From the NCBI RefSeq assembly GCF_028389875.1, contig NC_084676.1, forward strand, positions 1,364,001-1,428,000: DNA of 64,000 nucleotides. The letters run 5' to 3'. The stretch is from Rhea pennata (taxonomy: Eukaryota; Chordata; Aves; Rheiformes; Rheidae). A model generated the notes under the pieces. The model did no database searches and was not told the origin of the DNA. It saw only the letters and a program-made list of their open reading frames with translations. Below, piece after piece: positions 5,280 through 59,402 of the stretch (position 1 is the first letter of the stretch; every line of letters starts with the position of its first letter). A program made the translations under genes and the position numbers.

Positions 5280-7754
5280 ATGGGCTTTTGGGAGCCACCC
5301 GGGCTGCTCGGGAGAGCAGTGCTGCGGGTGCTGGTGCTGCAGGCGGCCTGGGCTCTGGGCGGCAGCCAGCTGCGCTACTCGGTGCCGGAGGAGGCCGAGG
5401 GCGGCACGGTGGTGGGTCGCCTGGCGCAGGACCTGGGCCTGGAGGCGGGCGAGCTGGAGGCGCGTCGGCTGCGGCTGGTGGCGAAGGGCCGGCGGGCGAG
5501 CGTGGAGGTGAGCGGGGCGAGCGGGGCGCTGGTGGTGAGCTCGCGGCTGGACCGGGAGGAGCTGTGCGGGAAGAGCGCGCCGTGCGCCCTGCGCCTGGAG
5601 GTGCTGCTGGAGCGGCCGCTGCGCGTCTTTCACGTGGAGCTGGAGGTCACCGACATCAACGACAACGCGCCGCTCTTCCCCGCCGCCCGCAAAAACCTCA
5701 GTGTCGCGGAGTCCTTAACGCTGCCGGGCTCGCGCTTCCCGCTGGAGGGCGCGTCGGACGCAGATATCGGAGCCAACGCGCAGCTCTCCTACAAACTCAG
5801 CCCGAGCGAGCATTTCGCTCTAGAGAGGCAGCAGAGTGAAGACTACCGAGAATCGTTATTTCTGGTGCTGTCGAAGGCTCTAGACCGGGAGGCGATGCCT
5901 GTGCACCGGCTGCTGCTGACGGCGAGTGACGGGGGCAGACCGTCGCTGTCGGGCACCATGGAGCTGGTGATCTCGGTGCTGGATGTGAACGACAATGCAC
6001 CCGAGTTCAACCAGTCGGTCTATAAAGTGCAGGTGGCAGAGAACGCTGCAGAGGGAACACTGGTTTTGCGCATCAGCGCCACGGATCCGGACGAAGGAAT
6101 GAACAGCGAAGTTATGTTCACTGCAAGCAACGGCTTTCCTGCCAGTGCAATGGACCTGTTCGTGCTAGATCCAAGCACAGGGCAGATGAGGCTCGCGGGT
6201 CCCCTGGATTTTGAGGACGTTCGTCTATACGAGATACAAGTGGAAGCGAAAGACAAGGGTTCGCCTCCGTTGTCGGGACACTGCAAGGTGGTGGTGGAGG
6301 TGCTGGACGTGAACGACAACGCGCCGGAGGTGTGGGTGACGTCGCTGTCGGTGCCGGTGCCGGAGGACGCGGCGCTGGGCACGGTGGTGGCGCTGCTGAG
6401 CGTGTCGGACCGGGACTCGGGGGCGAACGGGCGCGTGCGGTGCGCGGTGTGGCCGGCGGCGCCGTTCGGGCTGGTGGCGACGTTCGAGGGCTCGTACTCG
6501 CTGGTGCTGCGGGAGGCGCTGGACCGAGAGCGGGTGGCGGAGTACGAGGTGGAGGTGCGGGCGGAGGACGGCGGGGCGCCGCCGCTGCGCGCCAGGCGCG
6601 GGCTGCGGGTGCCGGTGTCGGACGTGAACGACAACGCGCCGGCGTTCGCGCAGGCCGTGTACACGGTGCTGGCGCGGGAGAACAACGCGGCGGGCGCGGA
6701 GCTGGCGCGGCTGTGGGCGCGGGACCCGGACGAGGCGGGCAACGGGCGCGTGAGCTACTCGCTGGCGGAGGGCGTGGCGGGGGGGGCGTCGCGCTCGGCG
6801 TCGAGCTACGTGTCGGTGGAGGCGGAGAGCGGGCGTCTGTGGGCGCTGCAGCCCTTGGACTACGAGGAGGTGCAGGTGCTGCAGTTCGAGGTGCGCGCGG
6901 TGGACGCGGGGGAGCCGGCGCTGTGCGGCAACGCCACGGTGCAGCTCTTCGTCGTGGACGAGAACGACAACGCGCCGGCGCTGCTGCCGCCGGCGGGCGG
7001 CGGCGCGGGGCCCTGGGCGGGCGGCGCGTCGGGGTCGGCGTCGGCGGGGCCGTCGGCGTCGGCGTCGCTGTGGGCGTGGGCGGCGTGGGGGTGGCCGGCG
7101 GGGCAGGTGGTGGCGAAGATCCGCGCGGTGGACGCGGACTCGGGCTACAACGCGTGGCTGCGCTACGAGCTGCGGGAGCCGCGGGGCAAGGGCGCGTTCC
7201 GCGTGGGGCTGTACAGCGGCGAGGTGAGCACGGCGCGGGCGCTGGAGGAGGCGGACGGCCCGGGGCAGACGCTGCTCATCGTGGTGCGGGACCACGGCGA
7301 GCCGGCGCGCTCGGCCACGGCCACGCTGAGCGTGTCGCTGGGCGAGGGCGGCGAGGCGGCGCTGGCGGCGGCGGGCGCGGGCTCGGCGTCGCTGGGGCTG
7401 CGGCCGGCGGCGGGCGCCGAGGGCGGCGGGGGCGGCGCGGCGGCGACGGCGACGAACGTGTGGCTGGTGGTGGCCATCTGCGCGGTGTCGAGCCTCTTCC
7501 TGCTGGCGCTGGTGCTGTACGGGGCGTGGCGGTGGGCGCCGCGGGCGGCCGTGCTCTCGGGGCCCGGGCCGGCGACGCTGGTGTGCGCCAGCGAAGTGGG
7601 CAGCTGGTCGTACTCGCAGCGGCAGAGCCGGAGCCTGTGCGTGGCGGACGGCGCGGGCAAGAGCGACCTCATGGTTTTCAGCCCCAACTTCCCGCCGCCC
7701 GCCGGCGGCGCGGCGAAGGAGACGCCGCAGGATCCGCCCGCTCTGCTGGACACG
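5280..7754 (+). CDS. PCDHA: Protocadherin-alpha variable exon A (825 codons, open at splice donor)
   Basis: This first exon encodes a cell-surface homophilic adhesion protein of the clustered protocadherin-alpha type. ATG 5280 is the first ATG in frame. A hydrophobic signal peptide covers residues 1-29, and mature EC1 starts at Gln30. Six cadherin repeats follow, marked by DxNDNAP linkers (EC1 to about 132, EC2 to 242, EC3 to 349, EC4 to 453, EC5 to 566, EC6 to about 690). The membrane segment is about 726-749. The tail has VGSWSYSQ and DLMVFSP, which are hallmarks of alpha. The frame is open at the donor ACG|GTCAGT (7754/7755, phase 0); a stop at 7803 lies in the intron. Unlike B-E, the N terminus is MGFWEPPGLLGRAV and the upstream DNA is unrelated; similarity starts at about 5318. 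The EC2 window (ERQQSEDYRESLF) and the EC3 window (TASNGFPASAMDLF) are unique to A. Sequons: NLS, NQS, NAT. It is probably the most upstream alpha exon. Confidence 0.94.
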
Positions 7755-8886
7755 GTCAGTGGCACTTTCTTTTCTCCTCCCCTCCCACCCTTCCGCCTGC
7801 CCTGACGCTCCTTACCCGCTTTTGCCTCTGCCTTTCGGCCGGTACTTGGCAGCTCTTTGGTCTGTGCCTCTTGGCACTGCAATGCCCGCTGTGTCTCCCT
7901 TCGCTTGCAAACGCTCTCGGCGTTCAGAGCCGGTGCGTGCTTGGAGAAGGAGTCCGCGCTCTGGAGCGTGGGGCTTGGTGGGATCCCTTCTGCAGAGGTC
8001 TTCCCGAGGGTTCTCCCCGGAACGCTTTCTCCTGAGCGTTTCCCGTTTCGTTCCTGGGAACGGTGCTGCGGGAGGGTGTTCTCGTGGCGTGCGGCGCCGG
8101 GAGCTTGCCTCGGCCTCCGGAGGTGTTGGGGCTGTGATGCTGGGGCCTTATCCTTCTCAGAGATGGTTTCCAGCGAGGCATGAGGAGGAGGGTGCCCCTC
8201 GGCTCTTTGAAAGCCGGCAGACCAAATCTGCTGCCAGGTAGCTGTCGCTCGCTCTTCCCGAGTTGGGCAGTCGTCTCAGAGAATGAAATGAGAGCCGCTT
8301 GTGGTTGGAGCTGTCTCGGCAGCACCTTCACAAATGTTATTGCCTCCAGTGTGTGGAGTTCCCAGCAACCGTTTGCTGCTTCGATGCCCGTCGTGTAGGT
8401 TCTGGCTGAGACGCTCTGCCAGAAGCTGCCTATTTGGCACAATCCGTATATTCCTTTATTAATACTGTGGCTGTTAGGGTAAGGATCTGCATTAGGCCGC
8501 ATCATGCTGGGAGTGGAACGCAGAACTGTGGGAGCTGCTTGGTGTTCAGCAATTTCCTGGCACCGTGGCACTGGCGCCGAGTGAGCCTTGCCTGAGGGAC
8601 GTGGAGATGAGGGTGGTGGTGGGGGACATAGAATGTGTCATAACCAAGAAGCGCTCTTCTTGGGAGAAAGGCTACTTGCGTCAAAGCTTATGTGCCCGGG
8701 GTGAGGTGTCGAGGATGCCCAGAGAAGTGCCTAAGTCAAGAGAGCTGCTTAGTGATGCTTGCCCAGGACCGTTTTGCAGGCTGCACGAGCCTGGAGTGGC
8801 AGCCTGAAAAGGATGCCTGACCTTCATCCTTCCGCTGCAAGTGGAGAACGAGATACAACGGAAGTTCTCTTTGACGGGATTGGGGC

Positions 8887-9600: not shown

Positions 9601-11302
9601 AGTGCCTAACGAGCTTAGCCTTCATTAGGTGTGAATGGACAATGCCAGGCAGCTGGTGGCCGTAATTAGCGCTGATGGCTCCGTCTTTGACGGCCTGAGG
9701 GGGCGGGGAGTGGGGGTGAGGCCCCTGAAGGGCTCCTCGCGGAGGAAAGGTGAGAAGGGGGCGGGTGACTTCTCTCCCTCATTTTCTTTCTTCTTTGCCT
9801 TTGCTCGTTCTTCCTTCTGGATTTGTGTTCCCCACCTTCTTAGTCCCCGTCCGCGAGAAGCGGGAGAGAACGAGAACCTCAGCTGTGCCCCACCCAGTGT
9901 CTTGTTGCAGCAGACGTGGTTCCCGTTCGCTCCGCATCCCTGGTTGTCATCTTGATGGTTTCATTCCTTGTGTGTTTTTTCCTGTGTGCCGTTTGCGCGG
10001 TTGTAGTGCAGGTTTCCCCCCTGTGGGGTTCCATGTTGTTACATACTCATGCGTAGCTCTGCCAGAAAGTGTAGTTCTACCGCAGCTGGCACTCGTGTTC
10101 GGCTGTGACTCAGTGCTGCAGAATACTTGCACAGTGTCTCGGGACGGACTGCTTTCGACTGCCTGTGTCTGAGTGCCAGGCAAAGCGGAAGTAATTGCGT
10201 GCTGCGGCATGCTGCGTTGCTTCGACTCTGCAGGCGCACGAAGCCACTCTGCTGTCTACAGAAGGAGTAACAGCTTGAGTTCTATCCTGGGAGGTGAATC
10301 TTGTCGTTGAAAAAGCCTCGATCCAAGGACGTTGTTAACATGCTTAGTACTTCAAAGGGTGCAGGTGGAAGAGCAAAACTCGAGGTAGATGGAAGACACA
10401 GGGAAAATGTGTTGCTCAATAAGCAGGGAGTACTGGTTGAGGAGCTGCCTTTGGTCACCAGGAGCCCTGGTGAAAGCTTGTCACTCATGGTTGCTGAGTG
10501 GGCCAGTTCCATGTGTCCCGTGGTGGTGGGCCGTGCTTGTTTTGTGAGAGTGCTGTGGTGGTGCCACGGTGCCTGGTGGTGAGCATGTGGGTTCCAGCTG
10601 GGACACATTTTTCCCTCTCCAGATCCGGCTCCTTTCCCGTCGCCAGCGTGACTTGGGAGATATCTCAGTATTGTGTGCAAGATGCAGACCGCTTCATTCT
10701 GATGTCTGTGGGATATCCAAACTGGGGCCGTGTGCCATCGGTGTGGGCACTTCTTTTCTCCTGTACGGAGGCGCATTTGACCTCGAGGGAATGACATCAG
10801 ATGACAAACTTCCTTTCTGCTGCTACCCTTCTCATGGAAGTGGACATAGTGCATACATTTATCGCAGCTCATGAAGTGGGAGCGTGTGGTATGTTCTGCG
10901 GGAAAATGCAGGAGTGTAACTGTCCTTACTTCTGTTAACATCATCACACACCTGTCACAGAAGTGAACGGGTGTGAGGCAATGTGTGGGGTCTCATTACT
11001 GTGTGTACTGAACCTCTGTCTCTGTCGTTCTGCAAGTGCTTGCCTGTCCGGAGAGATAAGCAGGAACTGGACATGCATCATGCAGCCGCAATTGGAAAAT
11101 GAGGAAGAGGAACACGTCTTGCCTGACGGAGATAGACCACTAAAGAGCTGTGGCTGTCCTAATTTTTCACCCTTCTCTGAGCATTTGCATGTCAGTTTGC
11201 CCAATATCTCCAAGGATGGCAATTTGACACCCTCTCTGGGCCCCTGCTCAGCTACCTAGCCACTCTCACCTCAGAGGTTAGTTTCTGTTTACCCAGTCTT
11301 TT
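9601..11302. repeat. Exon-less promoter-type module 1, left part (A-B spacer)
   Basis: The beginning (about 9601-10030) is a diverged copy of the DNA just upstream of exons B-E: AATGCCAGGCAGCTGGTGGC matches GTGCCAGGGAAGTGATGCCC, and TGTCTTGTTGCAGCAGACGT matches the leader near 18260. Where a leader and exon would be expected there is instead about 1 kb without a coding frame. A tail segment related to 17000-17180 follows and is cut by the CR1. The piece is nearly identical to the C-D spacer (for example 10282-10947 against 35258-35923). It reads as a relic promoter unit without an exon. I see no gene in it. Confidence 0.65.
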
Positions 11303-14892: not shown

Positions 14893-17800
14893 GGAAAGGG
14901 GAAAAGAGTTCACCCACATGCACAAACATGATAGCTCATTTGGGACTAGAGCAAGCCTACCCTTCATCACATGCGAGTGTGCCATGCCAGGGAGCTGATC
15001 CCCCATAGTAAGTGGTGATGGTTCTGCCTGTGATGGTGTCAGCCATTGAGGTGGAGGCAATCTGAGAGCTCCTCACAGAGGGTAGGTGAGTCTGAAGTGA
15101 GCTATTTCTCATGGGCTCTGCTATGCTCCTGCATCCCTTCTGGTTTTTGGCTCATGCCCCCTCCTCACCATAGGAAGCAGGTGAAGCACATCTGTTCACT
15201 GCAAAATCCAGTGTATCATTCAGGAGCAGAAGGTAACCTCCTGTGCCTGTTTCCCATAGTGGAGCATTAGCAATGAATCCTTCCCATGCAAACATCCTAG
15301 TTGTGGAAGCATCAGTCATTGCCAAGTCTCAATGGATTTTAAAGAGGAAGAGTCCTGGGAGCTTTTCCCTGAAGTCCTGCTCATACTTCTTAGTCCTCAT
15401 CCACGAGAACTGGGAGAGAACCTCAGGTCTTCCCTCCAGAGTCTGTTGTTCCAGCAGACATTGTTCACATTTGTGCTACATGCTTGGTTGTTCTCTTGAT
15501 GGTTTTATTTCTTGCGTGTGTTTTCCTCTGTGCTGTTTGTGTGACTGTGCCAGAAGTTTCCCTCTCGAATTGCGTACTGCTATATACTCATGCTTAGCTG
15601 TGTCACAAGATGTAGTTCTGCTGCAGCTGGCACTCATGTTCAGCTATATTTTAGTGGTAAAGGACACTGTCTCGAGACATACTGTTTCCAGTGCCTCTGT
15701 GTGGGTTCCAGGCAAAGCAGAAGTAATCGCATGCTGTTACATACTGCCTTACCTTGACTCTGCAGGTGCAAGATGTCACTCCTCCATCTGCATAAAGAGC
15801 AACAGATTGACTTTTATCTTGGGAGGTGAATCTTGTCTTTGAAAAAACCCCGATTCAAGGATGCTGTTAGCATCCTTGCAGGTGGAAGAGCCAATCTCAA
15901 GGTAGGTGGAAGGCACAGGGAAAGTATGTTGATCTATTAGCTGGGATGTACTGGTTGAGGAGCTGCCTTTGGTCACCAGGAGCCCTGCTGAAAGCTTGTC
16001 ACTCATGGTTGCTGAGTGGGCCAGTTCCATGTGTCCTGTGGTGTTGGGCCATGCTTGTTTTGTGAGAGTGCAGATAAACATGCTGTGATGGTGCCACGGT
16101 GCCTGGTGGTGAGCGTGTGGGTACCAGCTGGGACAGAATTTTGCCCACCAGAACCAGCTCCTTTCCCTGTCACCAGCGTGACTTGGGAGATATCTCAGTA
16201 ATTGTGTGCAAGATGCAGACTGCTTCATTCTGATGTCTGTGGGATGTACAAACTGAGGCCGCGTGCCATCGGTTGGGCACTTCTTTTCTCCTGTACATAG
16301 ATGACCTCGAGAGAATGGCATGCATGCTCAGTTTTCTGTTCTGTTTCTGAATTGCACAGAAGTGGCTATAGCGACGAGTCAGTGATGCAGTGATTTCAGA
16401 GCTTTGAGAAGACATGCACAGTTTGTGCAAATCCCACTTCCACGGAAGTTATCCTTGTTATTGATCACTGGAGAATTCCCTTAGAATGCCTTCTGGAGGA
16501 ATAATCTGATTTATTTTTCTGAAGAGGCAGGCACTGGCAGAACGTCCAGGTGCCTTCAACTACAAGGGAGGAAGATATGTCTGACAGGGAGATGTCTCTG
16601 TGTTCCCGTTCAGTCATGATATGATTGTTAGGATTGATGTAATGTTGCCCGGGTCATGGCTATAAGCTTATCCCAGCCGGCAGAACTTGTGAGTGACCTC
16701 GTGCCTTCCACGTTGCTTCCTGGCAGTGTGTGAGGGGGTGGTAGGAAGCCCGTGTGATTTAGTGTGGGAGGCTGCCTGGTGTGTTAATCTCAGTGGATGT
16801 GGGGGGATTGTGTGTGGATGTTTTGCATGAAAATGCAGGCATGTAACCTTCACGGCTTCTGTTTTGTTGCTTAACAGATGGCTGGTACAAATGGGTGTGA
16901 GGCAATGTGTGGGGACACATTACTGTGGGCAGAAAAATTTCTATTTTGTTGTTGTGGGAGTACTTGCCTTCTTGGAATGATAAGGAGAAGCTGGACAAGC
17001 AAAATGCACCTGCAAATGAAAAACGAGGCACAGGAAAAAACACCTTCCTTCGGGGTGGGGGGAGAGAGAGACCACCAAAAAGAGCCGTGTTTCTCCTCTA
17101 TGTTTTCACCCTTCTCTGAAGGTCAGCATGCCAAGATATGCTCACATTGTCCTGCTGAAGTAAGTAGTTGTCAGATCTCTTTGGAGTGTCTGTGTGCTCA
17201 CCCTGTCTCAGGGATGGCTTGCATTTGAAAGGGTGGACAATGCTGTCATGGTCCAGTGGAGACGTTCTTTGTAACATGATCTCCTTGCTCTGTGCTGTGC
17301 TTTCTGGTGAAGACGGAGAGTACGTGAAACCGTGGAGCCACATGTGTGTGTCAAATGCAACCTTGCAAGAAGAAGAATTGGTGCCTGCTGCTAGCAGTGA
17401 TCTTTCAGAAATCAGGCCCATGTGGCTACAGTTGTGGTATAAGCCTCGGTCTGTGCAGTGGATGGAAGTCTTCTCCCAGAGAGGGGGAGTGCCTGGAAGC
17501 AGGCGGGAGCCCTTTTATTCCTGCTGAGCACAGAGAAGTGAGGACGGGTCAAAGAGGACAGAGCTGAGGGCAGTGTGGTGTCACTGAAGGCCTTCCCAGG
17601 CATGCTCCGTGGCTCTGAATCCAGTGGCAGATGGGGAGAGATTGAGGAGACCGAGGGACTTCCCTAGAAAAGCAGTTTCCCGAGAGCCCTTCGGAATCCT
17701 CAGTACTCAGGGACCTCGTGCAAGCCAAGATGGGAAAGAGTTAAGAAGAGGCAGGAGAGGTTTTGCCCCAAGTCATGCATGAGCCTCATGTCGAGAGTGG

Positions 17801-18998: not shown

Positions 18999-21452
18999 AT
19001 GGGCGTGTGCGTGCGTGCTGTGCTGCGGGTGCTGGTGCTGCAGGCGGCCTGGGCTCTGGGCGGCGGCCAGCTGCGCTACTCGGTGCCGGAGGAGGCCGAG
19101 GGCGGCACGGTGGTGGGTCGCCTGGCGCAGGACCTGGGCCTGGAGGCGGGCGAGCTGGAGGCGCGTCGGCTGCGGCTGGTGGCGAAGGGCCGGCGGGCGA
19201 GCGTGGAGGTGAGCGGGGCGAGCGGGGCGCTGGTGGTGAGCTCGCGGCTGGACCGGGAGGAGCTGTGCGGGAAGAGCGCGCCGTGCGCCCTGCGCCTGGA
19301 GGTGCTGCTGGAGCGGCCGCTGCGCGTCTTTCACGTGGAGCTGGAGGTCACCGACATCAACGACAACGCGCCGCTCTTCCCCGCCGCCCGCAAAAACCTC
19401 AGTGTCGCGGAATCCTTAACGCTGCCGGGCTCGCGCTTCCCGCTGGAGGGCGCGTCGGACGCAGATATCGGAGCCAACGCGCAGCTCTCCTACAAACTCA
19501 GCCCGAGCGAGCATTTCGCTCTAGAAGTGATATCTAAAGACGTAAAGAAAACATCCGTAGCACTCGTGGTAACGAAGGCTCTGGACCGGGAGGCGATGCC
19601 TGTGCACCGGCTGCTGCTGACGGCGAGTGACGGGGGCAGACCGTCGCTGTCGGGCACCATGGAGCTGGTGGTCTCGGTGCTGGATGTGAACGACAACGCG
19701 CCCGAGTTCAACCAGTCGGTCTATAAAGTGCAGTTACCCGAGAATTCACCTCCGGCAATGGTGATTCTTCACCTAAGAGCGGCAGACAAGGACGAGGGAA
19801 TTAATCAAGAGGTTTCTTATGCCTTTAGCGACACTACTGCTGCCAAAGTGAAGGATCTGTTCAGAATAGACGCGAAATCAGGGGAACTAAGTACTGTAGG
19901 GAAACTGGACTTTGAGGACGTAGAATCGTATGACCTGGAGATCGAAGCGAGAGACAAGGGTTCTCCTTCGTTGTCGGGACACTGCAGAGTGGAGCTGGAG
20001 GTGCTGGACGTGAACGACAACGCGCCGGAGGTGTGGGTGACGTCGCTGTCGGTGCCGGTGCCGGAGGACGCGGCGCTGGGCACGGTGGTGGCGCTGCTGA
20101 GCGTGTCGGACCGGGACTCGGGGGCGAACGGGCGCGTGCGGTGCGCGGTGTGGCCGGCGGCGCCGTTCGGGCTGGTGGCGACGTTCGAGGGCTCGTACTC
20201 GCTGGTGCTGCGGGAGGCGCTGGACCGAGAGCGGGTGGCGGAGTACGAGGTGGAGGTGCGGGCGGAGGACGGCGGGGCGCCGCCGCTGCGCGCCAGGCGC
20301 GGGCTGCGGGTGCCGGTGTCGGACGTGAACGACAACGCGCCGGCGTTCGCGCAGGCCGTGTACACGGTGCTGGCGCGGGAGAACAACGCGGCGGGCGCGG
20401 AGCTGGCGCGGCTGTGGGCGCGGGACCCGGACGAGGCGGACAACGGGCGCGTGAGCTACTCGCTGGCGGAGGGCGTGGCGGGGGGGGCGTCGCGCTCGGC
20501 GTCGAGCTACGTGTCGGTGGAGGCGGAGAGCGGGCGTCTGTGGGCGCTGCAGCCCTTGGACTACGAGGAGGTGCAGGTGCTGCAGTTCGAGGTGCGCGCG
20601 GTGGACGCGGGGGAGCCGGCGCTGTGCGGCAACGCCACGGTGCAGCTCTTCGTCGTGGACGAGAACGACAACGCGCCGGCGCTGCTGCCGCCGGCGGGCG
20701 GCGGCGCGGGGCCCTGGGCGGGCGGCGCGTCGGGGTCGGCGTCGGCGGGGCCGTCGGCGTCGGCGTCGCTGTGGGCGTGGGCGGCGTGGGGGTGGCCGGC
20801 GGGGCAGGTGGTGGCGAAGATCCGCGCGGTGGACGCGGACTCGGGCTACAACGCGTGGCTGCGCTACGAGCTGCGGGAGCCGCGGGGCAAGGGCGCGTTC
20901 CGCGTGGGGCTGTACAGCGGCGAGGTGAGCACGGCGCGGGCGCTGGAGGAGGCGGACGGCCCGGGGCAGACGCTGCTCATCGTGGTGCGGGACCACGGCG
21001 AGCCGGCGCGCTCGGCCACGGCCACGCTGAGCGTGTCGCTGGGCGAGGGCGGCGAGGCGGCGCTGGCGGCCGGCGCGGGCTCGCCGTCGCTGGGGCTGCG
21101 GCCGGCGGCGGGCGCCGAGGGCGGCGGCGGTGGGGCGGCGGCGACGGCGACGAACGTGTGGCTGGTGGTGGCCATCTGCGCGGTGTCGAGCCTCTTCCTG
21201 CTGGCGCTGGTGCTGTACGGGGCGTGGCGGTGGGCGCCGCGGGCGGCCGTGCTCTCGGGGCCCGGGCCGGCGACGCTGGTGTGCGCCAGCGAAGTGGGCA
21301 GCTGGTCGTACTCGCAGCGGCAGAGCCGGAGCCTGTGCGTGGCGGACGGCGCGGGCAAGAGCGACCTCATGGTTTTCAGCCCCAACTTCCCGCCGCCCGC
21401 CGGCGGCGCGGCGAAGGAGACGCCGCAGGATCCGCCCGCTCTGCTGGACACG
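18999..21452 (+). CDS. PCDHA: Protocadherin-alpha variable exon B (818 codons, open at splice donor)
   Basis: ATG 18999 lies in a good Kozak context. The frame is also open upstream, but without an ATG. The signal peptide is residues 1-23 (MGVCVRAVLRVLVLQ...). EC1 spans about 24-126, with the alpha C-x5-C loop at C90-C96. EC2 runs to about 236, EC3 to 343, EC4 to 447 and EC5 to 560. A Gly/Ala/Ser/Trp-rich insert (564-602) precedes EC6 (to about 680). The membrane segment is about 720-742 and the tail contains VGSWSYSQ and DLMVFSP. The donor ACG|GTCAGT is at 21452/21453, phase 0. Sequons: N133, N238, N545. The EC2 window (EVISKDVKKTSVALVV) and EC3 window (AFSDTTAAKVKDLF) are the same as in exon D. 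The site that is usually RGD in mammalian alpha EC1 reads RRA (KGRRASVEV). It would be joined to constant exons outside the window. Confidence 0.95.
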
Positions 21453-23290
21453 GTCAGTGGCACTTTCTTTTCTCCTCCCCTCCCACCCTTCCGCCTGCCC
21501 TGACGCTCCTTACCCGCTTTTGCCTCTGCCTTTCGGCCGGTACTTGGCAGCTCTTTGGTCTGTGCCTCTTGGCACTGCAATGCCCGCTGTGTCTCCCTTC
21601 GCTTGCAAACGCTCTCGGCGTTCAGAGCCGGTGCGTGCTTGGAGAAGGAGTCCGCGCTCTGGAGCGTGGGGCTTGGTGGGATCCCTTCTGCAGAGGTCTT
21701 CCCGAGGGTTCTCCCCGGAACGCTTTCTCCTGAGCGTTTCCCGTTTTGTTCCTGGGAACGGTGCTGCGGGAGGGTGTTCTCGTGGCGTGCGGCGCCGGGA
21801 GCTTGCCTCGGCCTCCGGAGGTGTTGGGGCTGTGATGCTGGGGCCTTATCCTTCTCAGAGATGGTTTCCAGCGAGGCATGAGGAGGAGGGTGCCCCTCGG
21901 CTCTTTGAAAGCCGGCAGACCAAATCTGCTGCCAGGTAGCTGTCGCTCGCTCTTCCCGAGTTGGGTAGTCGTCTCAGAGAATGAAATGAGAGCCGCTTGT
22001 GGTTGGAGCTGTCTCGGCAGCACCTTCACAAATGTTATTGCCTCCAGTGTGTGGAGTTCCCAGCAACCGTTTGCTGCTTCGATGCCCGTCGTGTAGGTTC
22101 TGGCTGAGACGCTCTGCCAGAAGCTGCCTATTTGGCACAATCCGTATATTCCTTTATTAATACTGTGGCTGTTAGGGTAAGGATCTGCATTAGGCCGCAT
22201 CATGCTGGGAGTGGAACGCAGAACTGTGGGAGCTGCTTGGTGTTCAGCAATTTCCTGGCACCGTGGCACTGGCGCCGAGTGAGCCTTGCCTGAGGGACGT
22301 GGAGATGAGGGTGGTGGTGGGGGACATAGAATGTGTCATAACCAAGAAGCGCTCTTCTTGGGAGAAAGGCTACTTGCGTCAAAGCTTATGTGCCCGGGGT
22401 GAGGTGTCGAGGATGCCCAGAGAAGTGCCTAAGTCAAGAGAGCTGCTTAGTGATGCTTGCCCAGGACCGTTTTGCAGGCTGCACGAGCCTGGAGTGGCAG
22501 CCTGAAAAGGATGCCTGACCTTCATCCTTCCGCTGCAAGTGGAGAACGAGATACAACGGAAGTTCTCTTTGACGGGATTGGGGGGGGGGGGGAGAGAGAT
22601 CACTGGAGAGCTGTGTCTCCCCTATTGAAGTCCATCTTTCGCTGGGCGTTTTCTTGCTGGGCTTTGTTCAGTGGGACTCGCCATCGAAAGCGTGCCTGGA
22701 GTTGTCAGGTGTCTCTGGAGTCTGTCCACACTGACCGTATCTTCGGCTGGTCTCGTATGTCGGGAGGTGGAGTACCCTGTCACGGCGTAACAGAGGTGTT
22801 GTTTGTAAAAGGATTACCCTGCTCTATTATCCGCTCTTCGGTAAGGAAGGAGAGCGCCTGAAACCGCTGAGCTACATCAGTGTCTCAAAGGCAGCCTTGC
22901 AAAAGGGAAGAGTCTGCGCCTGTGCCTGTTGATCATGGTGAATCAGGAGCCGTGAGTCGTTCCCACGCAAACAGCTTCCCACGCAAACAGCTGTGGAAGC
23001 CTCGGCCTTTGCGATGGCTCGGTGGGAATCAGGAAGGCAGAGGCCTGAGGGCTTTTTCCTGAAGTGCTGCGCGTACTTGGTGCAGGAGTGGAGTCGACAT
23101 ATAAAAAGCACTACAGTGGAAAAGGCGGGATTGGAGACGAGGAAGCGAGAAGAGGGTGTTGTGGACGGGAATGTAACGGAAGGGGATGCTGCGACCAAAG
23201 AGGGGAAAGGAAGGAAAGGGAAGGGTGGAAAAAACACTCAGGAGATTGCCGTCATTAACCGACATCACCTCCACGTAGTGCCTGCAGTCA
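21453..23290. repeat. Post-exon intronic repeat module, copy B
   Basis: It is nearly identical to the DNA after exon A over its whole length, with 13 G at 22580-22592 and the 16-bp duplication at 22960-22991. It shares A/B/C-type bases such as CTCCTTACCCGC right after the exon. No gene is seen. Confidence 0.75.
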
Positions 23291-43651: not shown

Positions 43652-46099
43652 ATGGGCGTGTGCGTGCGTGCTGTGCTGCGGGTGCTGGTGCTGCAGGCGG
43701 CCTGGGCTCTTGGCGGCGGCCAGCTGCGCTACTCGGTGCCGGAAGAGGCCGAGGGCGGCACGGTGGTGGGTCGCCTGGCGCAGGACCTGGGCCTGGAGGC
43801 GGGCGAGCTGGAGGCGCGTCGGCTGCGGCTGGTGGCGAAGGGCCGGCGGGCGAGCGTGGAGGTGAGCAGGGCGAGCGGGGCGCTGGTGGTGAGCTCGCGG
43901 CTGGACCGGGAGGAGCTGTGCGGGAAGAGCGCGCCGTGCGCCCTGCGCCTGGAGGTGCTGCTGGAGCGGCCGCTGCGCGTCTTTCACGTGGAGCTGGAGG
44001 TCACCGACATCAACGACAACGCGCCGCTCTTCCCCGCCGCCCGCAAAAACCTCAGCGTATCGGAGAATTCCCCTCCCGGCTCGCGCTTCCCGCTGGAGGG
44101 CGCGTCGGACGCAGATATCGGAGCCAACGCGCAGCTCTCCTACAAACTCAGCCCGAGCGAGCATTTCGCTCTAGAAGTGATATCTAAAGACGTAAAGAAA
44201 ACATCCGTAGCACTCGTGGTAACGAAGGCTCTGGACCGGGAGGCGATGCCTGTGCACCGGCTGCTGCTGACGGCGAGTGACGGGGGCAGACCGTCGCTGT
44301 CGGGCACCATGGAGCTGGTGGTCTCGGTGCTGGATGTGAACGACAACGCGCCCGAGTTCAACCAGTCGGTCTATAAAGTGCAGTTACCCGAGAATTCACC
44401 TCCGGCAATGGTGATTCTTCACCTAAGAGCGGCAGACAAGGACGAGGGAATTAATCAAGAGGTTTCTTATGCCTTTAGCGACACTACTGCTGCCAAAGTG
44501 AAGGATCTGTTCAGAATAGACGCGAAATCAGGGGAACTAAGTACTGTAGGGAAACTGGACTTTGAGGACGTAGAATCGTATGACCTGGAGATCGAAGCGA
44601 GAGACAAGGGTTCTCCTTCGTTGTCGGGACACTGCAGAGTGGAGCTGGAGGTGCTGGACGTGAACGACAACGCGCCGGAGGTGTGGGTGACGTCGCTGTC
44701 GGTGCCGGTGCCGGAGGACGCGGCGCTGGGCACGGTGGTGGCGCTGCTGAGCGTGTCGGACCGGGACTCGGGGGCGAACGGGCGCGTGCGGTGCGCGGTG
44801 TGGCCGGCGGCGCCGTTCGGGCTGGTGGCGACGTTCGAGGGCTCGTACTCGCTGGTGCTGCGGGAGGCGCTGGACCGCGAGCGGGTGGCGGAGTACGAGG
44901 TGGAGGTGCGGGCGGAGGACGGCGGGGCGCCGCCGCTGCGCGCCAGGCGCGGGCTGCGGGTGCCGGTGTCGGACGTGAACGACAACGCGCCGGCATTCGC
45001 GCAGGCCGTGTACACGGTGCTGGCGCGGGAGAACAACGCGGCGGGCGCGGAGCTGGCGCGGCTGTGGGCGCGGGACCCGGACGAGGCGGGCAACGGGCGC
45101 GTGAGCTACTCGCTGGCGGAGGGCGTGGCGGGGGGGCCGTCGCGCTCGGCGTCGAGCTACGTGTCGGTGGAGGCGGAGAGCGGGCGTCTGTGGGCGCTGC
45201 AGCCCTTGGACTACGAGGAGGTGCAGGTGCTGCAGTTCGAGGTGCGCGCGGTGGACGCGGGGGAGCCGGCGCTGTGCGGCAACGCCACGGTGCAGCTCTT
45301 CGTCGTGGACGAGAACGACAACGCGCCGGCGCTGCTGCCGCCGGCGGGCGGCGGCGCGGGGCCCTGGGCGGGCGGCGCGTCGGGGTCGGCGTCGGCGGGG
45401 CCGTCGGCGTCGGCGTCGCTGTGGGCGTGGGCGGCGTGGGGGTGGCCGGCGGGGCAGGTGGTGGCGAAGATCCGCGCGGTGGACGCGGACTCGGGCTACA
45501 ACGCGTGGCTGCGCTACGAGCTGCGGGAGCCGCGGGGCAAGGGCGCGTTCCGCGTGGGGCTGTACAGCGGCGAGGTGAGCACGGCGCGGGCGCTGGAGGA
45601 GGCGGACGGCCCGGGGCAGACGCTGCTCATCGTGGTGCGGGACCACGGCGAGCCGGCGCGCTCGGCCACGGCCACGCTGAGCGTGTCGCTGGGCGAGGGC
45701 GGCGAGGCGGCGCTGGCGGCGGCGGGCTCGCCGTCGCTGGGGCTGCGGCCGGCGGCGGGCGCCGAGGGCGGCGGCGGTGGGGCGGCGGCGGCGGCGACGA
45801 ACGTGTGGCTGGTGGTGGCCATCTGCGCGGTGTCGAGCCTCTTCCTGCTGGCGCTGGTGCTGTACGGGGCGTGGCGGTGTGCGCCGCGGGCGGCCGTGCT
45901 CTCGGGGCCCGGGCCGGCGACGCTGGTGTGCGCCAGCGAAGTGGGCAGCTGGTCGTACTCGCAGCGGCAGAGCCGGAGCCTGTGCGTGGCGGACGGCGCG
46001 GGCAAGAGCGACCTCATGGTTTTCAGCCCCAACTTCCCGCCGCCCGCCGGCGGCGCGGCGAAGGAGACGCCGCAGGATCCGCCCGCTCTGCTGGACACG
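43652..46099 (+). CDS. PCDHA: Protocadherin-alpha variable exon D (816 codons, open at splice donor)
   Basis: ATG 43652 is followed by the signal peptide MGVCVRAVLRVLVLQ.... The domain order is as in exon B. The EC2 (EVISKDVKKTSVALVV) and EC3 (AFSDTTAAKVKDLF) windows match exon B, but the EC1/EC2 junction is SENSPPGSR, like exon C. Other differences from B are single residues: SRASG in EC1, DPDEAGNG and AGGPSRS in EC5, one Ala/Gly repeat change before the membrane (AALAAAGSPS), and GAWRCAPR after it. The donor ACG|GTCAGT is at 46099/46100, phase 0. It appears intact. Its adhesive identity should be close or equal to that of B, since EC2-EC3 are the same. Confidence 0.95.
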
Positions 46100-47174
46100 G
46101 TCAGTGGCACTTTCTTTTCTCCTCCCCTCCCACCCTTCCGCCTGCCCTGACGCTCCTTGCCCGCTTTTGCCTCTGCCTTTCGGCCGGTACTTGGCAGCCT
46201 TTTGGTCTGCGCCTCTTGGCACTGCGATGCCCGCTGTGTCTCCCTTTACTTGCAAACGCTCTCGGCGTTCAGAGCCGGTGCGTGCTTGGAGAAGGAGTCC
46301 GCGCTCTGGAGCGTGGGGCTTGGTGGGATCCCTTCTGCAGAGGTCTTCCCGAGGGTTCTCCCCAGAACGCTTTCTCCTGAGCGTTTCCCGTTTCGTTCTT
46401 GGGAACAGTGCTGCGGAGGGGTGTTCTCGTGGCGTGCGGCGCCGGGAGCTTGCCTCGGGCTCCGGAGGTGTTGGGGCTGTGATGCTGGGGCCTTATCCTT
46501 CTCAGAGATGGTTTCCAGCGAGGCATGAGGAGGAGGGTGCCCCTCGGCTCTTTGAAAGCCAGCAGACCAAATCTGCTGCCTGGTAGCTGTCGCTCGCTCT
46601 TCCCGAGTTGGGTAGTCGTCTCAGAGAATGAAGTGAGAGCCGCTTGTGGTTGGAGCTGTCTCGGCAGCACCTTCACAAATGTTATTGCCTCCAGTGTGTG
46701 GAGTTCCCAGCAACCGTTTGCTGCTTCGATGCCCGTCGTGTAGGTTCTGGCTGAGACGCTCTGCCAGAAGCTGCCTATTTGGCACAATCCGTATATTCCT
46801 TTAGTAATAGTGTGGCTGCTAGTGTAAGGATCTGCATTAGGCCGACTATGAGTCGTTCCCACGCAAACAGCTTCGTTGTGGAAGCCTCGGCCTTTGCGAA
46901 GGTTCGGTGGGAATGAGGAAGGCAGAGGCCTGAGGACTTTTTCCTGAAGTGCTGCGCGTCCTTAGTGCAGGAGTGGAGTCGACATGTAGAAAGCGCTACA
47001 GTGGAAAAGGCGGGATTGGAGACGAGGAAGCGAGAAGAGGGTGTTGTGGACGGGAATGTAACGGCAGGGGATGTTGCGACAAAGAAGGGAAAGGGAGGAA
47101 AGGGAAGGGTAGAAAAAAAACTCAGGAGATTGCCGTCATTAACCGATATCACCTCCATGTAGTGCCTGCAGTCA
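46100..47174. repeat. Post-exon intronic repeat module, copy D, with a ~764-bp deletion
   Basis: It follows the A/B/C/E pattern to GGATCTGCATTAGGCCG (about 46843), then jumps to ATGAGTCGTTCCCACG, which lies about 764 bp further on in copy A (8500 to 9264). The lost part includes the poly-G run. It shares CTCCTTGCCCGC and the single TTCCCACGCAAACAGC with E. No gene is seen. Confidence 0.75.
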
Positions 47175-49048
47175 GTGCCTAACGAGCTTAGCCTTCATTA
47201 GGTGTGAATGGACAATGCCAGGCAGCTGGTGGCCGTAATTAGCGCTGATGGCTCCGTCTTTGATGGTCTGAGGGGGCGGGGAGTGGGGGTGAGGCCCCTG
47301 AAGGGCTCCTCGCGGAGGAAAGGTGAGAAGGGGGCGGGTGACTTCTCTCCCTCATTTTCTTTCTTCTTTGCCTTTGCTCGTTCTTCCTTCTGGATTTGTG
47401 TTCCCCACCTTCTTAGTCCCCGCCCGCGAGAAGCGGGAGAGAACGAGAACCTCAGCTGTGCCCCACCCAGTGTCTTGTTGCAGCAGACGTGGTTCCCGTT
47501 CGCTCCGCATCCCTGGTTGTCATCTTGATGGTTTCATTCCTTGTGTGTGTTTTCCTGTGTGCCGTTTGCGCGGCTGTAGTGCAGGTTTCCCCCCTGTGGG
47601 GTTCCATGTTGTTACATACTCATGCGTAGCTCTGCCAGAAAGTGTAGTTCTACCGCAGCTGGCACTCGTGTTCGGCTGTGACTCAGTGTTGCAGAATACT
47701 TGCACAGTGTCTCGGGACGGACTGCTTTCGATTGCCTGTGTCTGAGTGCCAGGCAAAGCGGAAGTAATTGCGTGCTGCGGCATGCTGCGTTGCTTCGACT
47801 CTGCAGGCACGCGAAGCCACTCTGCTGTCTACAGAAGGAGTAACAGCTTGAGTGCTATCCTGGGAGGTGAATCTTGTCGTTGAAAAAGCCTCGATTCAAG
47901 GACGTTGTTAACATGCTTAGTACTTCAAAGGGCGCAGGTGCAAGAGCAAATCTCGAGGTAGGTGGAAGACATGAAAAAGTGTGTTGCTCAGTAAGCCAGG
48001 GCGTATAAGTCGAGGAGCTGCCTTTGGTCACCAGGAGCCCTGGTGAAAGCTTGTCACTCATGGTTGCTGAGTGGGCCAGTTCCATGTGTCCCGTGGTGGT
48101 GGGCGGTGCTTGTTTTGTGCGCGTGGAGATAAATATGCTGTGATGGTGCCACGGTGCCTGGTGGTGAGCATGTGGGTTCCAGCTGCGACAGCATTTCCCC
48201 CCACTGGAACTGGCTCCCTTCCCCGTCGCCAGCATGACTTGGGAGATATCTCAGTAACTGTGTGCAAGATGCAGACCGCTTCATTCTGATGTCTGTGGGA
48301 TATCCAAACTGGGGCCGTGTGCCATCGGTGTGGGCACTTCTTTTCTCCTGTACGGAGGTGCGTTTGACCTCGAGGGAATGACATCAGATGACAAACTTCC
48401 TTTCTGCTGCTACCCTTCTCATGGAAGTGGACATAGTGCATACATTTATCGCAGCTCATGAAGTGGGAGTGTGTGGTTATGTTCTGCGGGAAAATGCAGG
48501 AGTGTAACTGTCACGACTTCTGTTAACATCATCACACACCTGTCATGTAAGTGAACGGGTGTGAGGCAATGTGTGGGATCTCATTACTGTGCGTACTGAA
48601 CCTCTGTCTCTGTTGCTCTGCAAGTGCTTGCCTGTCTGGAGAGATAAGCAGGAACTGGACATGCATCATGCAGCCGCAATCAGAAAATGAGGAAGAGGAA
48701 CATGTCTTGCACTAAGGAGCTGTGGCTGTCCATTCTTTTTCTTTTCTGTTCTGTTCTGTTTTGTTCTTTTCCTCCTCTCAGTATTCTTGGAATCTGTAGC
48801 ACTTTGGTGGCCTCTGAACCCTAAGGGGATGTATGCATGGAGCTATCTGACTTAGGCCAGATGGTGTTTCAGAATGACAACTGTGTAGCTGAGAGACTAT
48901 GCTTTCCTAGGCAAACCTCATGTTTGTTTCTGTCCACACTCACCGTGTCTCAGGCTGGGCTTGTCTTTCAAAGGGTGGACCAGTCTGTTATGGCCTAGTA
49001 GGGATGTTCTTTGCAGTGTGACTTCCTTGCCTTGTGCTAAACTTTCTG
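47175..49048. repeat. Exon-less module 1, left part (D-E spacer)
   Basis: It parallels 23291-25562 but lacks about 400 bp (the B-C interval about 24860-25270), replaced near 48735-48780 by a T-rich stretch with TTCTG/TTTTG units. It ends with CTTGCCTTGTGCTAAACTTT next to the CR1 3' end. No gene is seen. Confidence 0.65.
48735..48780 (+). repeat. T-rich TTCTG-type microsatellite
   Basis: A short degenerate run of TTCTG, TTTTG and TTCTTTT units marks where the D-E module differs from the B-C module. Confidence 0.6.
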
Positions 49049-52818: not shown

Positions 52819-55800
52819 GAAAGGGGAAAAGAGTTCACCCACATGCACAAACATGATGGCTTGCTCTAGTCCCAAATGAGCTTACCCTTCATCACATGCG
52901 AGTGTGCCATGCCAGGGAGCTGATCCCCCATAGTAAGTGGTGATGGTTCTGCCTGTGATGGTGTCAGCCATTGAGGTGGAGGCAATCTGAGAGCTCCTCA
53001 CAAAGGGTAGGTGAGTCTGAAGTGAGCTGTTTCTCATGGGCTCCGCTGTTCTCCTGCATCCCTTCTGGTTTTTGACTCATGCCCCCTCCTCACCAAAGGA
53101 AGCAGGTGAAGCACGTTTGTTCACTGCAGGATCCATTGTATCATCCAGGAGCAGAAGGTAATCTCCTGTGCCTGTTGCTCATGGTGGAGCATGAGCTATG
53201 AACCCTTCCCATGCAGACATCCTAGTTGTGGAAGCATCAGTCATTGCCAAGACTCAATGGATTTCAAAGAGGAAGATTCCTGGGAGCTTTTTCCTGAAGT
53301 CCTGCTCATACTTCTTAGTCCCCATCCACGAGAACTGGGAGAGAACCTCAGGTCTTCCCTCCAGAGTCTGTTGTTCCAGCAGACATTGTTCACATTTGTG
53401 CTACATGCTTGGTTGTTCTCTTGACGGTTTTATTTCTTGCGTGTGTTTTCCTGTGTGCTGTTTGTGTGACTGTGCCAGAAGTTTCCTTCTCTCAAGTTAT
53501 ATACTGCTATATACTCATGCTTAGCTGTGTCATAAGATGTAGTTGTACTGCAGCTGGCACTCGTGTTCAGCTATATTTTAGTGGTAAAGGACACTGTCTC
53601 GAGACATACTGTTTCCAGTGCCTCTGTGTGGGTTCCAGGCAAAGCAGAAGTAATCGCATGCTGTTACATACTGCCTTACCTTGACTCTGCAGGTGCAAGA
53701 TGTCACTCCTCCATCTGCATAAAGAGCAACAGCTTGACTTTTATCTTGAGAGGTGAATCTTATCATTTAAAAAAGCCCCAACTCAAGGATGCTGTTAGCA
53801 TACTTAGTAGTTTATAGGGTACAGGTGGAAGAGCCAATCTCAAGGTAGGTGGAAGGCACAGGGAAAGTATGTTGATCTATTAGCTGGGATGTATTGGTTG
53901 AGGACCTGCCTTCAGTCACCAGGAGCCCTGCTGAAAGCTTGTCGCTCATGGTTGCTGAGTGGGCCGGTTCCATGTGTCCCATGGTGGTGGGCCATGCTTG
54001 TTTTGTGAGCGTGCAGATAAACATGCTGTGATGGTGCCACGGTGCCTGATGGTGAGCACGTGGGTTCCAGCTGGGACAGCATTTCCCCCCAGTGGAACCA
54101 GCCCCTTTCCCCATCACCAGCGTGACTTGGGAGATATCTCAGTATTGTGTGCAAGATGCAGACTGCTTCATTCTGATGTCTGTGGGATGCGCAAACCGGG
54201 GATGCGTGCCGTCCGTTGGGCACTTCTTTTCTTCTTTATGGAGATGATCTCGAGAGAATGGCGTGCATGTCCAGCTTTCTGTTCTGCTTCTGAATTGCAC
54301 AGAAGTGGCTATAGGGACGAGTCATTGATTTCAGAGCTTTGAGAAGACATGCACAGTTTGTGCAAATCCCACTTCCACGGAAGTTATCCTTGTTATTGAT
54401 CACTGGAGAATTCCCTTAGAATGCCTTCTGGAGGAATAATCTGATTTATTTTTCTGAAGAGGCAGCCACTGGCAGAATGTCCAGGTGCCTCCAACTACAA
54501 GGGAGGAAGATGTGCCTGACAGGCAGATGTCTCTGTGTTCCCCTTCAGTCATGATATGATTGTTAGGATCGATGTAATGTTGCCCAGGTCATGGCTGTAA
54601 GCTTATCCCAGCCGGCAGCACTTGTGAGTGACCTCGTGCCTTCCACGTTGCTTCCTGGCAGTGTGTGAGGGGGTGGTAGGAAGCCCGTGTGATTTAGTGT
54701 GGGAGGCTGCCTGGTGTGTTAATCTCAGTGGATGTGGGGGGATTGTGTGTGGATGTTTTGCATGAAAATGCAGATGTGTAACCTTCACGGCTTCTGTTTT
54801 GTTGCTTAACAGATGGCTGGTACTAATGGGTGTGAGGCAATGTGTGGGGACACATTGCTGTGGGCAGAGAAATTCCTATTTTGTTGTTGTGGGAGTACTT
54901 GCCTTCTTGGAACGATAAGGAGAAGCTGGACAAGCAAAATGCACCTGCAAATGGAAAACGAGGCAAAGGGAAATACCACCTTCCTTGGGGGTGGGGGGAG
55001 AGAGAGACCACCAAAAAGAGCTGTGCTTCTCCTCTATGTTTTCACCCTTCTCTGAAGGTCAGCATGCCAAGATATGCTCACATTGTCCTCCTGAAGTAAG
55101 CAGTTGTCAGATCTCTTTGGAGTGTCTGTGTGCTCACCCTGTCTCAGGGATGGCTTGCATTTGAAAGGGTGGACAATGCTGTCATGGTCCAGTGGAGACG
55201 TTCTTTGTAACATGATCTCCTTGCTCTGTGCTGTGCTTTCTGGTGAAGACGGAGAGTACGTGAAACCGTGGAGCCACATGTGTGTGTCAAATGCAACCTT
55301 GCAAGAAGAAGAATTGGTGCCTGCTGCTAGCAGTGATCTTTCAGAAATCAGTCCCATGTGGCTACAGTTGTGGTATAAGCCTCGGTCTGTGCAGTGGATG
55401 GAAGTCTTCTCCCAGAGAGGGGGAGTGCCTGCTTTGTGCAGCCTGGAAGCAGGCGGGAGCCCTTTTATTCCTGCTGAGCACAGAGAAGTGAGGACGGGTC
55501 AAAGAGGACAGAGCTGAGGGCAGTGTGGTGTCACTGAAGGCCTTCCCAGGCGTGCTCCGTGGTTCTGAATCCAGTGGCAGATGGGGAGAGATTGAGGAGA
55601 CCGAGGGTCTTCCCTAGAAAAGCAGTTTCCCAAGAGCCCTTTGGAATCCTCAGTACTCAGGGACCTCGTGCAAGCCAAGGTGGGAAAGAGTTAAGAAGAG
55701 GCAGGAGAGGTTTTGCCCCAAGTCATGCATGAGCCTCATGTCGAGAATGGCACAGACATTCAGAAAACGCTTTGGAAAAGGGAAGAAAAGAGAAGAGAAA

Positions 55801-56579: not shown

Positions 56580-56597
56580 CGCGCCTGGGCAGGCGCG
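56580..56597. repeat. Perfect inverted repeat in the exon E leader
   Basis: This is the same dyad CGCGCCTG-GG-CAGGCGCG as before exons B and D. Confidence 0.8.
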
Positions 56598-56951: not shown

Positions 56952-59402
56952 ATGGGCGTGTGCATGCGTGCTGTGCTGCGGGTGCTGGTGCTGCAGGCGG
57001 CCTGGGCTCTGGGCGGCGGCCAGCTGCGCTACTCGGTGCCGGAGGAGGCCGAGGGCGGCACGGTGGTGGGTCGCCTGGCGCAGGACCTGGGCCTGGAGGC
57101 GGGCGAGCTGGAGGCGCGTCGGCTGCGGCTGGCGGCGAAGGGCCGGCGGGCGAGCGTGGAGGTGAGCGGGGCGAGCGGGGCGCTGGTGGTGAGCTCGCGG
57201 CTGGACCGGGAGGAGCTGTGCGGGAAGAGCGCGCCGTGCGCCCTGCGCCTGGAGGTGCTGCTGGAGCGGCCGCTGCGCGTCTTTCACGTGGAGCTGGAGG
57301 TCACCGACATCAACGACAACGCGCCGCTCTTCCCCGCCGCCCGCAAAAACCTCAGTGTCGCGGAATTAACAACGCTGCCGGGCTCGCGCTTCCCGCTGGA
57401 GGGCGCGTCGGACGCAGATATCGGAGCCAACGCGCAGCTCTCCTACAAACTCAGCCCGAGCGAGCATTTCGCTCTGGATTTACAGAAAATGAATGACGGA
57501 AATATGCTACCCGAACTCGTGTTAACGAAAGCTCTGGACCGGGAGGCGATGCCTGTGCACCGGCTGCTGCTGACGGCGAGTGACGGGGGCAGACCGTCGC
57601 TGTCGGGCACCATGGAGCTGGTGGTCTCGGTGCTGGATGTGAACGACAACGCGCCCGAGTTCAACCAGTCGGTCTATAAAGTGCAGCTGGCAGAGAACGC
57701 TGCAGAGGGGACGCTGGTTTTGCGCTTGAGCGCCACGGATCCTGACGGGGGAACGAACAGCGCGATGACTTACACAGCCACCCACTTCCTGCCACTCCTT
57801 GGGAAAGATGTCATTAGCGTGAATCCAAACACGGGAGAGATCAGACTGACGGCGCCCCTGGATTTTGAAGAAGTCAAAGTATTTGACTTCCGCATAGAGG
57901 CGAGAGACAAGGGTTCGCCTCCGTTGTCGGGACACTGCAGAGTGGAGCTGGAGGTGCTGGACGTGAACGACAACGCGCCGGAGGTGTGGGTGACGTCGCT
58001 GTCGGTGCCGGTGCCGGAGGACGCGGCCCTAGGCACGGTGGTGGCGCTGCTGAGCGTGTCGGACCGGGACTCGGGGGCGAACGGGCGCGTGCGGTGCGCG
58101 GTGTGGCCGGCGGCGCCGTTCGGGCTGGTGGCGACGTTCGAGGGCTCGTACTCGCTGGTGCTGCGGGAGGCGCTGGACCGCGAGCGGGTGGCGGAGTACG
58201 AGGTGGAGGTGCGGGCGGAGGACGGCGGGGCGCCGCCGCTGCGCGCCAGGCGCGGGCTGCGGGTGCCGGTGTCGGACGTGAACGACAACGCGCCGGCGTT
58301 CGCGCAGGCCGTGTACACGGTGCTGGCGCGGGAGAACAACGCGGCGGGCGCGGAGCTGGCGCGGCTGTGGGCGCGGGACCCGGACGAGGCGGGCAACGGG
58401 CGCGTGAACTACTCGCTGGCGGAGGGCATGGCCGGGGGGGCGTCGCGCTCGGCGTCGAGCTACGTGTCGGTGGAGGCGGAGAGCGGGCGTCTGTGGGCGC
58501 TGCAGCCCTTGGACTACGAGGAGGTGCAGGTGCTGCAGTTCGAGGTGCGCGCGGTGGACGCGGGGGAGCCGGCGCTGTGCGGCAATGCCACGGTGCAGCT
58601 CTTCGTCGTGGACGAGAACGACAACGCGCCGGCGCTGCTGCCGCCGGCGGGCGGCGGCGCGGGGCCCTGGGCGGGCGGCGCGTCGGGGTCGGCGTCGGCG
58701 GGGCCGTCGGCGTCGGCGTCGCTATGGGCGTGGGCGGCGTCGGGGTGGCCGGCGGGGCAGGTGGTGGCGAAGATCCGCGCGGTGGACGCGGACTCGGGCT
58801 ACAACGCGTGGCTGCGCTACGAGCTGCGGGAGCCGCGGGGCAAGGGCGCGTTCCGCGTGGGGCTGTACAGCGGCGAGGTGAGCACGGCGCGGGCGCTGGA
58901 GGAGGCGGACGGCCCGGGGCAGACGCTGCTCATCGTGGTGCGGGACCACGGCGAGCCGGCGCGCTCGGCCACGGCCACGCTGAGCGTGTCGCTGGGCGAG
59001 GGCGGCGAGGCGGCGCTGGCGGCGGCGGGCTCGCCGTCGCCGGGGCTGCGGCCGGCGGCGGGCGCCGAGGGCGGCGGCGGTGGGGCGGCGGCGGCGGCGA
59101 CGAACGTGTGGCTGGTGGTGGCCATCTGCGCGGTGTCGAGCCTCTTCCTGCTGGCGCTGGTGCTGTACGGGGCGTGGCGGTGGGCGCCGCGGGCGGCCGT
59201 GCTCTCGGGGCCCGGGCCGGCGACGCGGGTGTGCGCCAGCGAAGTGGGCAGCTGGTCGTACTCGCAGCGGCAGAGCCGGAGCCTGTGCGTGGCGGACGGC
59301 GCGGGCAAGAGCGACCTCATGGTTTTCAGCCCCAACTTCCCGCCGCCCGCCGGCGGCGCGGCGAAGGAGACGCCGCAGGATCTGCCCGCTCTGCTGGACA
59401 CG
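56952..59402 (+). CDS. PCDHA: Protocadherin-alpha variable exon E (817 codons, open at splice donor)
   Basis: ATG 56952 is followed by the signal peptide MGVCMRAVLRVLVLQ.... The order of EC1-EC6, membrane segment and tail is as in the other copies. The EC2 window (DLQKMNDGNMLPELVL) and EC3 window (TATHFLPLLGKDV) are of the exon C type with several substitutions (DPDGGTNSAMTY against DPDEGSNRAVTY). The EC1/EC2 junction is AELTTLPGSR, a form of its own. Other private changes: LAAKGRR in EC1, VNYSLAEGM in EC5, WAASGWPAG before EC6, and ATRVCAS in the tail. DPDGG changes the acidic residue of a calcium-motif-like DPDEG in EC3, though both Asp remain. The donor ACG|GTCAGT is at 59402/59403, phase 0. 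It appears intact. Confidence 0.95.

Follow-up and report, generated by a model that had tools for sequence, protein, structure and literature searches.

Three variable windows in otherwise near-identical protocadherin-alpha exons of Rhea pennata

The 64,000-nucleotide window of Rhea pennata DNA analysed here (NC_084676.1, contig label C14, positions 1364001-1428000; called the stretch below, where "windows" are the variable parts of its exons) carries five protocadherin-alpha variable exons, all open and 832-841 amino acids long. The exons are nearly identical except in three windows: at the junction of the first two extracellular cadherin repeats (EC1 and EC2), within EC2 and in EC3. A search of the same genome (1.27 Gb, 180 contigs) for additional exons found four more of alpha type within 45 kb downstream of the stretch, giving a total of nine (a1-a9), and the codon alignment has open frames in all nine. 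We think it probable that the locus is the alternate variable part of the protocadherin-alpha cluster, nine tandem exons in repeat units of roughly 7-16 kb; that the units multiplied as wholes through unequal exchange, while their exons stay alike through recurrent GC-biased gene conversion; and that conversion passes over three places, the beginning of EC2, its beta4-beta5 loop and EC3, with much older variants persisting there and reassorting among exons. The outcome would be a near-constant frame (EC1, EC4, the cis domains, the membrane segment and the tail) with variation mainly on the EC2:EC3 recognition surface.

Results

Divergence along the exons

The windows are 8 (junction), 17 (EC2) and 89 (EC3) codons long. 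Across the nine exons, synonymous divergence (dS) was 0.018 over the 689 codons outside them, versus 0.78, 1.13 and 0.90 within the junction, EC2 and EC3 windows, respectively. Per domain it was 0.003 in EC1, 0.152 in EC2, 0.679 in EC3, 0.030 in EC4, 0.019 in EC5, 0.002 in EC6 and 0.008 in the membrane segment and tail. An earlier note, made from the letters of this DNA alone, had described EC1, EC4-EC6, the membrane segment and the tail as nearly identical and had proposed to follow synonymous divergence along the exons. The profile proved strongly uneven, with the highest values in EC2 and EC3, and values of 0.002-0.030 elsewhere agree with the described near-identity; one departure, a valine/alanine difference at EC1 position 38, is weighed in the Discussion.

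Within EC1-EC6, 234 of 357 bases varied in the windows versus 30 of 1590 outside (Fisher p ~1e-172, with sites treated as independent; for these counts, the amino-acid columns and the family comparison below, the windows were drawn with one or two extra codons). Fourfold sites outside the windows varied in 20 of 451 cases, and in EC1 in none of 64. At the protein level, 89 of the 95 variable amino-acid columns of EC1-EC4 fall in the windows, which occupy 120 of 423 columns; EC4 had no amino-acid variation at all and EC1 had two variable residues. The window edges are sharp: 92 unchanged bases separate the junction window from the EC2 window, and another 87 follow the latter. GC content at third codon positions (GC3) was 0.96 outside the windows, versus 0.74 in the junction, 0.52 in the EC2 and 0.60 in the EC3 window. 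Such a contrast is expected if GC-biased conversion acted outside the windows only, and raised GC3 has served as a footprint of conversion in fugu (PMC1852091).

Exons and window types

Each of the variable exons is a single large exon encoding six EC repeats, a membrane segment and a short tail, as judged from open reading frames and alignment. The five in the stretch are all on the forward strand, a1 at 5280-7805 (including the stop codon), a2 at 18999-21503, a3 at 30281-32782, a4 at 43652-46150 and a5 at 56952-59453. Exon a2, the only one compared, is nearest to mouse Pcdha7 among 52 solved sequences (5dzv, E 1e-185; 622 bits versus 521 for the runner-up) and matches the Pfam families Cadherin and Cadherin_2. 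Downstream on the same strand, at C14:1519779-1519844, there is a piece of an alpha constant exon (22 residues, 77%). The 5' flank and the first 12 codons of a1 are not homologous to those of the other exons, homology starting at 5316, base 37 of the exon; over the 500 bases that precede the exon, GC content is 0.43 for a1 versus 0.64-0.81 for the other eight. Exon a1 may be without the usual promoter.

Alignment and typing placed the junction window, on the same strand, at 5703-5726 in a1, 19404-19427 in a2 and 57357-57380 in a5 (type A; a5 differs from a2 at 4 of 24 bases) and, one codon shorter, at 30686-30706 in a3 and 44057-44077 in a4 (type B). The EC2 beta4-beta5 window lies at 5823-5873 in a1, at 19524-19574 in a2 and 44174-44224 in a4 (type I), and at 30803-30853 in a3 and 57477-57527 in a5 (type II). 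For EC3 the positions are 6030-6296 in a1, 19731-19997 in a2 and 44381-44647 in a4 (type I), and 31010-31276 in a3 and 57684-57950 in a5 (type II). These agree with the three positions picked out earlier, except that the EC3 window ends some 40-50 bases further on (e.g. 6030-6296).

Over the nine exons, the junction is of type A in a1, a2, a5, a6, a8 and a9 and of type B in a3, a4 and a7, and the EC2 and EC3 windows are of type I in a2 and a4 and of type II in a3, a5 and a6. All four combinations of junction type with EC2/EC3 type are present (a2, a4, a3 and a5/a6), and the EC2 window of a7 is a hybrid with an a2-like front and an a1-like back. Compatibility between neighbouring sites, taken over 125 informative sites that lie mostly in the windows, was 0.218 versus 0.306 after shuffling, and none of 2000 shuffles gave a value as low. 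Hypermutation within the windows was also considered; it was rejected because window types are common to non-adjacent exons.

The reassortment of types and the sharp edges would likewise be produced if, after duplication, short conversion tracts from distant paralogues had replaced the windows, which would then move while the frame stayed. Exons a8 and a9, near-identical downstream yet with EC3 windows unrelated to each other, can be read in the same way. This explanation calls for donors, and no close one was found. Gamma-type exons were rejected as a source of the alpha EC3 windows, the best gamma match spanning 24-94 bases, and among the matches listed for four of the nine islands against the region no non-exon donor appeared in 180 kb. 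Donors may be lost, and import then grades into the persistence of old variants. We regard import from paralogues as unlikely.

Repeat units and age of the windows

Long matches between units are ~88-98% identical. The earlier description of homogenised exons is correct in that the exons are alike outside the windows, but the likeness is not limited to exons: whole units are near-identical. Since the units multiplied as a whole, the picture of homogenised exons is incomplete. Alignments of 10 kb units with MAFFT were poor upstream of approximately -1000 and past approximately +5400, and intergenic divergence was therefore obtained from BLAST segments (cut at 300 bases and 85%); 14 of the 36 pairs, those of a8 or a9 with a1-a7, gave no qualifying segment. 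It amounted to 0.020-0.055 in the 21 pairs of a1-a7 and to 0.0015 over 1345 bases between a8 and a9. The fourfold divergence of the exons outside the windows was 0.016 (a1-a7), below the intergenic range, which argues that exchange went on after the units had been duplicated. Exons a8 and a9, the pair with the most similar downstream flank (0.15% divergence), show 114 differences in 360 window bases versus 7 in 2043 outside. The windows have thus retained old variants, which, to judge from these divergences, are far older than the repeat units.

Near-identity of whole units is also what recent tandem amplification alone would give, if the windows diverged fast later under strong diversifying selection. 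However, window dS (0.8-1.1) is as extreme as the protein change, the ratio of nonsynonymous to synonymous divergence (dN/dS) is below one, and the window types common to a2 and a4 are not accompanied by closer flanks (a2-a4 0.030, a2-a3 0.026). We find this account very unlikely. Uniform young duplication as a complete account was rejected by the window dS.

A stretch of ~950 bases recurs at 78-81% identity in non-equivalent positions of the units (9836-10770, 15386-16296, 23525-24470, 34813-35746, 40374-41332, 47409-48384, 53311-54243 and 61494-62444) and is probably a dispersed repeat.

A possible regulatory element in the exons

For EC1 and early EC2, identity could be kept by regulatory constraint (an exonic CTCF site and an antisense promoter) instead of conversion. 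Published work places exonic CTCF sites in alpha exons ~700 bp downstream of a promoter element (PMC7811963). In the rhea, a CTCF-like sequence (11 of 13 matching the consensus) is found near +441 in all nine exons (e.g. 19440-19453), within the invariant bases that separate the junction window from the EC2 window and about at the published exonic place (PMC7811963); in the 600 bases upstream of the exons there is no match of at least 11 of 13. The lack of variation at EC1 fourfold sites would also fit such constraint. However, GC-rich codons for the FPLEGA residues may by themselves produce the match, and constraint of this kind leaves EC4-EC6 and the tail unexplained. We give very little credence to regulation as the cause.

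Windows and the recognition interface

EC2 and EC3 are opposed in the antiparallel trans dimer of protocadherins. We judged the placement of the windows relative to the EC2:EC3 interface from published descriptions and sequence alignment. As the earlier note had supposed, the windows lie in EC2 and EC3. By strand order, we assign the EC2 window to the EC2 beta4-beta5 loop, which PMC5001838 names, with the EC3 beta3-beta4 loop, as a site of alpha diversity and specificity; there, the EC1/EC4 contacts of alphas are described as little diversified. In alpha7 numbering, matched by eye via a gammaB4 alignment, the junction window corresponds to positions 113-119. According to PMC8901172, S116R in gammaC5 abolishes trans binding and S117 of beta6 is one of the five residues that distinguish beta6 from beta8.

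A part in specificity is ascribed to EC1:EC4 as well in PMC5106212, where exchanges at EC1 36/38 and EC4 322/324 swap the preference of alpha7 and alpha8, although the EC1/EC4 faces of alphas are mainly conserved. In the rhea array, positions 36 (R), 322 (W) and 324 (T) are constant. The claim that the EC1 and EC4 faces are almost constant is thus upheld for EC4, which is invariant, and accords with what PMC5106212 states for alphas; it falls short at EC1 position 38. The earlier note supposed that EC2:EC3 would carry nearly all specificity in the array, a view that PMC5106212 contests in general.

Other exon families and neighbouring features

Another 29 exons lie at C14:1602953-1795211. Twenty-three of them form three families, which we labelled gA (5), gB (9) and gC (9), and six stand alone. 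The alpha-defined windows were applied to gA, gB and gC (gB with and without g18; gC without the too divergent g13 and g25, that is, with 7 of 9 exons). In gA, 19 of 348 bases varied in the windows versus 20 of 1533 outside, a 4.2-fold difference to which the EC2 loop is the sole contributor; the three varying EC1 residues of this family are the first three of g11, at the start of its frame, and may be an artefact. The corresponding counts for gC were 25 of 348 versus 28 of 1530 (3.9-fold), with contributions from the junction and the EC2 loop. For gB they were 158 of 348 versus 264 of 1554 (2.7-fold; 4.2-fold without g18). Here the junction and EC3 contribute, plus an EC1 loop between two cysteines in which 10 of 11 residues are variable and which is constant in alpha. 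The variability of this loop is in line with the larger role of EC1 in gamma specificity described in PMC5106212.

Two pairs of gamma-type exons (C14:1619542-1669996), g4 with g6 and g5 with g7, show no difference along the full aligned exon; the copies either are of very recent origin or were duplicated in the assembly, and they call for an assembly check. That the alpha array itself is an artefact of collapsed or mis-joined copies we hold to be most improbable: assembly is difficult where tandem repeats are near-identical, as the exact gamma pairs remind us, but the alpha units differ by 2-5.5% in intergenic DNA, plus insertions, all nine exons are open, and comparable windows are present in other parts of the cluster.

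Upstream of the alpha array, a divergent single protocadherin exon is found at C14:1345353-1348148; its tail, at ~C14:1349863, has 36% similarity to an alpha constant region. A delta protocadherin has been kept in birds and lost in mammals (PMC2764143), and the upstream exon would fit such a gene.

Discussion

Either selection or a mismatch barrier may be the cause of the escape of the windows from conversion. Once the windows had diverged, mismatches could by themselves keep them apart, and in this array such a barrier is inseparable from selection for distinct recognition. We sought positive selection by dN/dS and by recent pairs and did not find it, in a test limited by saturation.

Several observations weigh against conversion sparing old recognition variants. 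Window dN/dS was 0.34-0.55, and recent pairs had no amino-acid excess in the windows, the nonsynonymous-to-synonymous counts for a3-a5 being 14.75:11.25 inside and 11:8 outside. Between a2 and a4 the EC2 and EC3 windows (19524-19997 and 44174-44647) show no difference, but the junction does; the two exons may share one specificity. The EC2 face is matched only in part, since the positions that gamma isoforms use as EC2 contacts in PMC5106212 (111, 125 and 128) are constant here in the by-eye gammaB4 alignment. EC1 position 38, one of the specificity positions, has A in a5, a8 and a9 and V in the remaining six exons; with two variable EC1 positions, the chance that one hits 36 or 38 is 0.04. 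The flanks of a8 and a9 are alike downstream only and differ upstream. Finally, gA, gB and gC each use a subset of the windows, and alpha alone clearly uses all three. We nevertheless prefer unequal exchange with GC-biased conversion and persisting EC2/EC3 variants. What the sequences show is the contrast in divergence with its sharp edges, the reassortment, the GC3 difference and the homology of the units; conversion as the cause and any effect on binding are inferred.

More tentatively, the array can be viewed as a germline cassette system. Conversion would maintain a uniform frame, and three exchangeable cassettes (8, 17 and 89 codons) would be reshuffled through the identical flanks, giving new homophilic specificities with EC1, EC4, the cis contacts and signalling unchanged; other families would have adopted the same positions in differing subsets. 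We offer this extension as a possibility that we ourselves doubt.

The contribution of EC1:EC4 to partner choice is disputed between PMC5001838 and PMC5106212. In most clusters EC1-EC4 all vary, which makes the question hard to isolate. With EC4 constant and EC1 variable at two residues, binding tests among the natural proteins of the rhea array would separate the EC1:EC4 contact from the EC2:EC3 contact, and these proteins offer ready-made comparisons, a2/a4 (window difference at the junction only) and the nearly alike a5/a6/a3. The array would thus be a clean natural test for where recognition is encoded, and an example of conversion keeping copies alike while windows of a few dozen bases retain diversity.

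Homogenised protocadherin exons with EC2 and EC3 spared are established in zebrafish and fugu and, more weakly, in mouse alpha. The zebrafish and fugu subclusters resemble the rhea array in that tandem paralogues are homogenised at synonymous sites, GC3 is raised and EC2/EC3 are spared. The quotient of high to low dS is 79.5-1280 in zebrafish and 38.4 to >94.6 in fugu; the rhea EC3 and EC6 values (~0.68/0.002) are not the same measure. Fugu differs in having a single boundary, in EC4 or EC5, between a diverse 5' and a homogenised 3' part, (PMC1852091), whereas in the rhea homogenisation extends to EC1, EC4 and the greater part of EC2 and leaves three islands. In mouse Pcdha1-12, dS is low in EC1 (0.31) and EC5 (0.27) and high in EC2 (2.08) and EC3 (2.15), so the homogenisation of EC1, thought unusual in the earlier note, has a precedent; in contrast to the rhea, mouse EC4 (1.71) and EC6 (1.35) are not homogenised (PMC4978886, table 2). 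What stands out here is therefore the homogenisation of EC4, EC6 and EC2 outside the loop, rather than that of EC1. Anole Pcdh alpha 1-15 are similar in having the lowest dS in EC1 (0.151) and the highest in EC3 (0.513), but the ratio is just 3.4 and little conversion was inferred. Our literature search, which had most subscription journals outside its reach, found no published account of such a pattern for alpha clusters of birds; the chicken CNR/Pcdh-alpha cluster, reportedly described in print by Sugino in 2004, may show the same pattern. The rhea array takes a known pattern to an extreme, and it is set apart by its extent: EC1, EC4-EC6 and most of EC2 are homogenised, and three islands of diversity are left.

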